A stretch of 64,000 bases of DNA from Caulobacter sp. BK020. Lineage in GTDB: Bacteria > Pseudomonadota > Alphaproteobacteria > Caulobacterales > Caulobacteraceae. The position numbers and the translations under genes are program-made. Where the stretch lies: NCBI RefSeq assembly GCF_004342605.1, contig NZ_SLZL01000012.1, forward strand, positions 62,001 to 126,000. The letters are read 5' to 3'. Below, in pieces: positions 30,187 to 32,400 of this stretch; positions within the stretch are counted from its first letter, which is position 1, and every line of letters starts with the position of its first letter. Below the pieces are notes generated by a model. The model had not been told where the DNA came from. It did no database searches and worked only from the letters and a program-made list of their open reading frames with translations.

Positions 30187-31062
30187 CTATCCCGCCACCA
30201 TCTCCAGCCACTCGTCCTCGGTCATCACCTGGATCCCCAGCTCGGAGGCGGTCTTCAGCTTCGAGCCGGCGCCGGGACCGGCCACCACCAGGTCGGTCTT
30301 CCTGGACACCGACGAGGCGACCTTGGCCCCCAGCCCCTCGGCCTGGGCCTTGGCCTCGTCGCGGGTCATTGTCTCCAGCGAGCCGGTGAAGACAATGGTA
30401 CACCCCCCCAAAAGGCTTTGCCGCCCCACGAGCGGCGCGACGCGTACCGACTCCACCTGCGCATACGAACGAGGAATATACGCCCCCTGCGGTCGCACAT
30501 AGCCAGTGTGATCAAGCCTTCCCAACGTCATTCCGATCCTGCTCGGCAAGTCACGCAGGTGCGTGACGCCATTCAACGCCGCAGCGGCCAGGGCCACCTG
30601 TCCGCAGGCATAAGCGTCAGCGCTCGCGTCATGATGGTCGAAATCCACCCCCAGATGGCCGCAGACCACGTTCAGCTTGTGTGATGACAGCTCCGGCCAA
30701 ACGCTCCGCGCCATCTGAACAGTGCACATGTAGTCGAATTCCGGTGGTTGAACCTCGTAGTGCTCACAGGTTCGACGGATCACACTGATATCGAACGAGG
30801 CGTTATGCGCCAGGATCAGAGCGCCTTGGAGCACTGGCCTCAAACGTTCCAGCAACTCCGGAAACTCGTCAGCACCCTCGACCTGTTTTGGTCCAATGCC
30901 ATGGAACCCGATATTAAACGGCGCGAACCTCATGCCAGGCGGACGGATATAGTGATGCTCCACGCGTGACACTTGGCCGTCTTCAATCCAGGCGAGGCCC
31001 ATGGAACATGGGCTCGCTCGAGTCTCGTTGGCCGTCTCAAAATCAATCGCAACTACACTCAT
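30187..31062 (-). CDS. DnaQ-like 3'-5' exonuclease with C-terminal BRCT domain
   Basis: A 291-residue, two-domain protein. Residues 1 to about 165 form a DEDDh exonuclease, with VAIDFETAN (Asp7, Glu9), [10 protein letters not shown] and HHDASADAY. Residues about 218-291 form a BRCT domain, [16 protein letters not shown] through [21 protein letters not shown] to MTEDEWLEM. The BRCT closely resembles the C-terminal BRCT of bacterial LigA. Base composition changes inside the gene. The exonuclease part is about 50-60 percent GC, while the BRCT end is about 75 percent GC, like the rest of the window. ATG 31062 follows a G-rich site. Confidence 0.85.
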
Positions 31063-32400
31063 GCCCGCCCCCCGACAGCCAAATCTATTGCTCACCTATA
31101 AGGTTCAGCCAGTCATCTTCGGTCAAGACCGTTACGTTCAGGGCTCGCGCCTTGTCGAGTTTAGAGCCGGCTCCAGGACCCGCGACGAGGTAGTCGGTGT
31201 TTGCCGAGATCGAACCGGCAACCTTTGCACCCAAACTCAGCGCCATTGCTTTGGCTGCATCTCGCGAGAAACGCTCCAGCGTTCCCGTGAACACTACGAC
31301 CTTTCCAGTCACTGGCGACTCGGCGACCGTTTTTGAGACGTCCTCGACCACCACGGCCGCGATAAGATCGTCCAGCAGAGCCAAATTGCGGGGCTCTTGG
31401 AAGAACTCGATCAGCGACTCCGCCCCTACCTCACCCAGGCCGTCGAGGCTGGTGAGGTATTCGTAAGAGGCCTTCGACTGCGGTTCGGCCACAGCGGCTA
31501 GGTCGTCCAACAAAGCCTGCGCCGACGGATAGGCTTCGGCTAATCCGGCCGCGACCGAGGCGCTGACACCCTTCACCTTGTGGGCCGCCAAGAGCTGAGA
31601 GATGCTTCCTCCAGCACCAAGTTGCTCCAACCAGTCGGCCAAGGGTGATGCAGCTGCCGCCAACCGCTCGGCGACAACCGGGCCAAGCTTGTCGATGGTC
31701 AATAAACGCTGGCGTGGCCTGAAATGATCGGCGGCCGAAATCACGCCGGCGCGCAGTCTATCCAGCGACCCGAAGTGCTCAGCCAACAAGCGCGCCGTCT
31801 CTTCCCCCACGTGACGAATACCTAGTGCAAACACGAAGCGCGATAGCGAAATCCGACGACGGGCGTCGATGTTGTCGAATAGGGTCTCTAGCCCCTCAAA
31901 GGCTCTATCACTATCGTCGATCGTCTTACCGCCTGCCCCTTCCCCCTTCAGCATTTGGCGCTGCAAGGCTTGCTCCTTGCGGCGCTCGATGATGGCTGCC
32001 CTGACCTCCTTCGCGCGGCTTCGCAGACGGAAGATATCGGCGGGATCCTTCAGCAGGCCCCTTTCGTGAAACAGCTCGACGTAGGTCTCGCCAAAGCCTT
32101 CGATGTCGAAAGCTTTCCGCGAAATGAAGAGCTTGATCCTTTCGGTGAGCTGAGCCGAACAGACGAGGCCGCCTGTGCATCGCCGCACAGCTTCTCCAAT
32201 CTCGCGGATCGCGTGGCTACCGCAGACGGGACAAGTGTTAGGGAAAATAAAACGTTCGGCGTTCGGCGGTCGCTCCGACGCTACAACGTTCACGATCTGG
32301 GGAATAACGTCGCCCGCGCGTTGCAGCACCACTGTATCGCCGATGTGAATGTCCTTCCGAACGATCTCATCCTCATTATGCAGAGTAGCGTTCCGCACAA
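30400..32400. other. Low-GC mosaic segment spanning the exonuclease gene and the 3' part of ligA
   Basis: GC per 60 bases falls from 45/60 at 30301-30360 to about 31/60 at 30721-30780. It stays near 34-39/60 across the ligA 3' half and is 29/60 at 32341-32400. It then jumps to 47/60 at 32401-32460. Both edges lie inside coding sequence: the left one in the BRCT region of the exonuclease, the right one in the middle of ligA. This is what allelic replacement by foreign DNA would leave. Boundaries are by eye, within about 50 bases. Confidence 0.7.

Follow-up and report, generated by a model that had tools for sequence, protein, structure and literature searches.

The ligA gene of Caulobacter sp. 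BK020 and the exonuclease gene that follows it are both mosaics of recipient and foreign DNA, and the last approximately 70 codons of the exonuclease are the recipient's old LigA tail. The window (the whole stretch of 64,000 nucleotides that was analysed, to which all coordinates refer) carries a foreign block at 30.40-32.42 kb, both edges of which lie inside coding sequence, and the DNA that resumes behind the block is again that of the recipient. With a probability of about 0.92, we regard the locus as the product of one double homologous recombination, for which a single core gene supplied both anchors.

Locus structure and base composition

All features described here lie on the minus strand, in the order ligA (31,085-33,499, from the ORF list and Pfam), a gap of 22 nt, the exonuclease gene (ORF 30,187-31,095, with a likely start at 31,062 and its stop at 30,187) and a DUF2147 gene (29,680-30,096, assigned by its DUF2147 match). 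LigA contained all of the usual Pfam domains plus BRCT, and scored above the curated cut-offs of NF005932.1 (824.9 versus 369 bits) and TIGR00575 (731.5 versus 444.45); the exonuclease matched RNase_T (E 8.8e-17) and BRCT. The genome (5.13 Mb in 47 contigs, 100% complete, contamination 0.02) held one full-length ligA.

The GC content of positions 30,420-32,420 was 0.595, relative to a mean of 0.690 (sd 0.021, minimum 0.639) for 581 other 2-kb segments of the 64 kb (taken at a step of 100, none overlapping 30,420-32,420), none of which was as low. GC3 in ligA was 0.955 before codon 358 and 0.684 after it, and in the exonuclease gene it rose near codon 221, from 0.661 in the body to 0.943 in the last 70 codons, both reading frames being open across both edges. 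A low-GC step at 30.4 and 32.4 kb, with its edges inside coding sequence, had been noted in the sequence-only reading, and was confirmed by these values. The ORFs of the block comprised only the ligA part and the exonuclease.

The left edge inside ligA

For the genus, 68 ligA loci were fetched and 67 LigA proteins (the window's included) were aligned, two truncated ligA among the 69 genus loci having been dropped. At the protein level, the window's LigA was 97% identical to that of the nearest relative, G010, in its first part, 37% in the part before the BRCT and 60% in the BRCT itself, and the best genus match to the foreign part was G045 (74%). The native 5' part of ligA (32,424-33,499), which begins with the adenylation domain and reaches the start of the OB fold, was 0.91-0.99 identical to G010 DNA in 90-nt windows as far as the edge; the value fell from 0.97-0.99 immediately before the edge to 0.67 immediately beyond it. 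The foreign 3' part (31,085-32,423), set apart by its G010 and G045 identities, its GC3 and the AU test described below, comprises the OB fold, zinc finger, HhH and BRCT.

The left edge was placed by maximum chi-square at 32,414-32,423, in the codons of a conserved stretch of the OB fold (...TLHN). With G010 and G045 as parents, the break fell between the informative sites 32,423 and 32,420 (chi-square 307.7, reached in 0 of 5,000 permutations, permuted maximum 23.0), and G010-like informative sites numbered 234 of 247 before the break and 110 of 440 after it. When G059 replaced G010 as a parent, the break fell between 32,423 and 32,414 (0 of 5,000 permutations), that is, at the same place within 10 nt.

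Trees of the two LigA parts were built from 49 of 148 LigA, and AU tests were run on 26, both sets being chosen by the authors. In the first-part tree the window was placed among G010, G059, G015 and their kin, its exact sister being unresolved among the 49 rows, and in the second-part tree a very long branch held only the window and G045. Placing the window's second LigA part in the window's own clade was rejected by the AU test (p 5e-48), as was joining the window with G045 in the first part (p 0.005). The separate trees for the two halves that the sequence-only reading had proposed thus gave differing phylogenies, and the breakpoint scan it had proposed near 30.4 and 32.4 kb returned breaks near 32.42 and 30.40 kb.

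Upstream of ligA (33,500-36,400), there was no synteny with G010, despite the 97% identical first part of LigA. A gene for a serine hydrolase (beta-lactamase-like) at 34,819-36,357 had only a 30% match in the G010 region, and matches of the flank were short.

The right edge and the origin of the exonuclease tail

Alignment of the exonuclease gene to the end of G010 ligA showed no similarity upstream of approximately 30,400 and near identity from there onward, through the stop codon and the spacer, which placed the right edge at 30,365-30,400, in the first BRCT codons. The edge separates the foreign body (30,397-31,062), a predicted DEDDh-type 3'-5' exonuclease, from the native tail (30,187-30,396), the nearest relatives of which are the LigA BRCTs of the genus: the exonuclease BRCT was up to 80% identical to these, versus 51% to the BRCT of the adjoining LigA. 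The 2.5 kb beyond the exonuclease stop, including the DUF2147 gene that follows ligA in relatives, was colinear with and 93.0% identical to the DNA behind G010 ligA, where no counterpart of the exonuclease was present. Given this match of tail, spacer and 2.5-kb flank, the BRCT of the exonuclease can be identified as the former tail of the resident ligase. It had been proposed from the letters of the window that the native-looking BRCT sits on the exonuclease and that the old ligA tail was left as the end of that gene; both points stood, as the tail and the DNA that follows are, respectively, the LigA BRCT and the ligA 3' flank of the recipient.

Parallel cases in other genomes

The event is not a single occurrence, as similar blocks were found in several other genomes of the order; those of G045, G971, G168 and G695 likewise have their right edge at a BRCT. 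The only genome found to carry a related block was G045, of the same genus (LigA part 74%, exonuclease body 82%). In this genome, which consists of two contigs, ligA is followed by an exonuclease with a BRCT and then by a second exonuclease lacking one. Its ligA was 0.91-0.98 identical to those of G072 and G069 in the first approximately 240 nt examined (with one window at 0.89) and about 0.7 thereafter, the tail of its first exonuclease matched the LigA tail of G072, and this tail joins the second exonuclease as LigA joins the exonuclease in G072. In G045 the block thus sits within a resident ligA-exonuclease pair. A one-breakpoint test had its maximum (chi-square 61.7, 0 of 5,000 permutations) at the position corresponding to 32.7 kb and not at about 33.2 kb, where identity to G072 fell; we attribute this displacement to the second parent (the window), which is not donor-like in its native first part.

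In G971, from another family of the order, the first LigA part was 0.92 and the second 0.52 identical to G698, with an edge near nt 1140; low composition extended up to the exonuclease tail, which was 0.77-0.93 identical per 30 nt to the LigA BRCT of G698. In G695, a Parvularculaceae MAG, low composition extended from early in ligA to the exonuclease tail, so that its left edge rests on composition; the nearest sequence to that tail was the Parvularculaceae LigA BRCT of G744 (0.79; sister in the tree, 99/89), the BRCT of its own LigA being 0.48 identical. In both genomes the DNA behind the exonuclease was without similarity to that behind the relative's ligA, and the right edge there is accordingly shown by the tail only. 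Both edges of G834 fit the series as judged by composition only, and G008 and G663 are weak candidates for further cases.

Two tandem exonucleases follow ligA in G168 (L277), whose family group, g3, we take to be Brevundimonas. The first of these had a GC content of 0.31-0.43, relative to about 0.64 locally, and the low GC extended into the BRCT of the preceding LigA; its tail, the spacer and the second exonuclease matched the LigA tail, spacer and exonuclease of G222. Both crossovers seem to lie in BRCTs in this genome. In G160 and G053, a foreign LigA middle lies between a native first part and a native BRCT, the right crossover being in LigA's own BRCT. The LigA of G160 (L272) has 831 aa, its first part and BRCT being about 90% identical to those of relatives, and the exonuclease there has normal GC; G053 (L082) showed low GC and low identity to neighbours at approximately nt 1200-2100 of ligA, and had no adjoining exonuclease.

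The left edges vary between genomes. In a screen of 160 ligA, the nearest neighbour of the N-terminal part exceeded 0.80 in 139, and eight were flagged (G698 only as the partner of G971); this set was partly picked by likeness to the window, and gives no basis for a rate of exchange.

The exonuclease subfamily and its linkage to ligA

An exonuclease of this kind adjoined ligA in 29 of 75 genus genomes (genus search). In the family search, a match at E 1e-25 was obtained in 44 of 299 genomes, 40 of these at an identity of at least 53%, and ligA was directly upstream in all 40 (the gap, where measured, being -4 to +199 nt). Among the four genomes with exonucleases at 35-38%, ligA was absent from the fetched stretch in three (the fourth being G211), and in the class search it was upstream in 3 of 20 more distant loci (34-52%). 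Presence at 40 of 40 close and 3 of 20 distant loci makes the linkage a property of this exonuclease subfamily.

Members of the subfamily vary, some ending in a BRCT and others stopping before its position. Nine genus genomes carried a BRCT-tailed exonuclease with no obvious recent block. In a tree of 51 of 168 BRCTs, chosen by the authors (with G548, the tail of which is not a BRCT, left out, and L115 dropped as a duplicate of G695), the tails of the window, of G045 and of these nine older exonucleases fell inside the genus LigA BRCT clade (95/86, from 88 columns and with the bootstrap unsettled), the nine older tails forming a long branch, with an identity of only 0.55-0.57 to any LigA. The tails of G222, G240, G687 and the second exonuclease of G168 were unlike that of LigA. 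The ligA-linked exonuclease of G548 (L285) has 283 aa and a C-terminal part that could not be aligned as a BRCT. In G020 and G038 (L052 and L068), a TAG lies inside the exonuclease match, so that the gene ends early relative to the window's.

The best-scoring of the listed protein families for the window's exonuclease was PRK06195.1, at 256.2 bits, below its cut-off of 373 bits. The PADLOC profile PDLC05027 (PDC-S48, a candidate defence protein), for which no cut-off is given, matched at E 1.4e-33; the LigA BRCT alone matched at 8.6e-9, and a CRISPR-associated DEDDh model at 6e-26. The exonuclease might act in repair beside the ligase or, as the weak PADLOC hint would allow, in phage defence.

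Search for a donor

No donor was found through the exonuclease among the best 80 of 234 relatives (84,980 species genomes searched), and there were no exonuclease matches in viral contigs; the search was extended to plasmids and phages, with 20 matches listed, and 18 plasmid records at 60-80% identity fall outside these. Nor was a donor found through the foreign LigA part in 249 family, 385 class and 398 order genomes, the best match being G045, itself a recipient. No phage record (0 of 81) and no plasmid record (0 of 141) covered 80% of this query, and viral contigs yielded two loci, at 30-35%. One common donor lineage for all of the blocks was considered and rejected, as the LigA parts compared (from G000, G045, G971, G834, G695, G160, G053, G008, G663 and G168) were only 27-49% alike, apart from the 74% between the window and G045.

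The two parts of the block differ in their nearest relatives. The foreign LigA part was close to G045 alone and only 37% identical to the genus (G010), so that, of the earlier proposal that homologous recombination had imported the ligA 3' end of a neighbour plus an exonuclease, the recombination stands and the near neighbour as donor does not. The exonuclease body was 82% identical to that of G045, 80-81% to those of G025 and G030 and 74-82% to those of many genus members, and grouped with genus exonucleases (support 84 and 92). As the LigA part shows no such likeness, the donor was either a relative, at least in part, or itself a mosaic; an already mosaic donor, or two steps, would fit as well as a single distant donor in one step.

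The same likeness of the exonuclease body to genus exonucleases could also mean that the exonuclease came first, behind a native ligA, as it stands in many genus members, and that the ligA end was exchanged later, much as G160 combines an exchanged ligA middle with an exonuclease of normal GC. We consider this order of events improbable, as the exonuclease body shares the low composition of the block (GC3 0.66), G045 has both parts together, and the native BRCT lies behind the exonuclease and not in front of it, an outcome that a later exchange of ligA only would not give.

Proposed recombination event

In a double homologous recombination, the incoming DNA would have brought the exonuclease gene, preceded by the end of a divergent ligA. 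On the left, the crossover would have occurred where ligA encodes its strongly conserved OB-fold stretch, and on the right the BRCT codons of the incoming exonuclease would have paired with the terminal BRCT codons of the resident ligA, two different genes with one domain in common. The resident LigA middle would thereby have been lost, the exonuclease would have entered as cargo, and the resident LigA BRCT would have remained as its tail. The donor exonuclease presumably had a terminal BRCT of its own, and we infer RecA-type recombination as the agent, the route of entry being an inference of the same kind. Two conserved stretches of LigA would be available for pairing: the BRCT and, ahead of it, the OB-fold motif or a stretch that lies earlier still. 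A right crossover in LigA's own BRCT would exchange the ligase middle only, and one in the BRCT of the exonuclease would bring in the exonuclease, to which the resident BRCT would then pass. The pattern of G168 would also result if a circle carrying the exonuclease and a BRCT integrated by a single crossover.

The locus has a sharp break between recipient and foreign DNA inside the core gene ligA, and recipient sequence resumes past the cargo, in which the ORFs and profile matches of the block revealed no integrase or transposase. Integration of elements into gene ends, with restoration of the end, is well known, and a mobile element or phage could in principle have inserted the low-GC block by site-specific integration, supplying a replacement gene end. 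This is very improbable, however: the block contains no integrase and nothing but the exonuclease and a ligA part, the replaced portion of ligA exceeds 1.3 kb and is not just an end, the differing left edges argue against a fixed site, and the viral, phage and plasmid searches above gave no close viral relative of either part. An error of assembly or binning that joined two organisms, conceivable for a draft of 47 contigs, can practically be dismissed in view of the frames open over both edges, the contamination of 0.02 and the like structure in the two-contig genome G045.

A bolder extension of the double-recombination reading, which we put forward tentatively and think somewhat less likely than its opposite, is that ligA and the linked exonuclease form a self-targeting cassette without a recombinase, each transfer giving the exonuclease a new tail from the LigA BRCT of the new host. 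As a copy of the last domain of the ligase stands at the end of the exonuclease, ordinary homologous recombination would then be able to insert the latter behind any ligA of the order. Exchange of the AT-rich ligase parts and of the exonuclease would take place under some selection, phage pressure being one example, and the older tails in local LigA BRCT clades (in the nine genus genomes and, weakly, in G168, G260 and G663) would be traces of earlier rounds.

Comparison with known systems

The locus indicates a way for an accessory gene to settle next to an essential one without any mobile element: the final domain of the essential gene is borrowed as homology. It is a clear case in which one step made two adjoining proteins chimeric, and several parallel cases can be compared with it. 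Within the order, the second half of LigA (a replication enzyme and drug target) stands out as a spot of repeated exchange, which raises the question of the selecting force. No report of ligA/BRCT/exonuclease mosaics was found in the literature searched.

Interspecies homologous recombination produces mosaic genes with sharp in-gene breakpoints, preserved frames and conflicting trees. The present locus shares the sharp coding breakpoints, the two intact frames and the tree conflict, but here two adjoining genes became chimeric at once and one gene was gained. There are elements that, on integration, replace the 3' end of a conserved gene; here too the end of a conserved gene was replaced and new DNA follows, although with no recombinase, no fixed site and half a gene replaced. 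The domain order, exonuclease then BRCT, is that of PRK06195.1 and PDC-S48, but the window's protein scored under the PRK06195.1 cut-off (256 of 373 bits) and its BRCT comes from the host's LigA. A 2017 paper (PMC5635113) describes gene gain with no mobile element in which homology flanks the cargo and the edge core gene is itself recombined. The present locus agrees in these three points, and differs in that here one core gene gives both anchors, the second of them non-allelic, so that the cargo gene receives a new C terminus. The kind of event is already known, and the variation lies in the use of the final domain of one core gene as a non-allelic second anchor, recurring in several genera.
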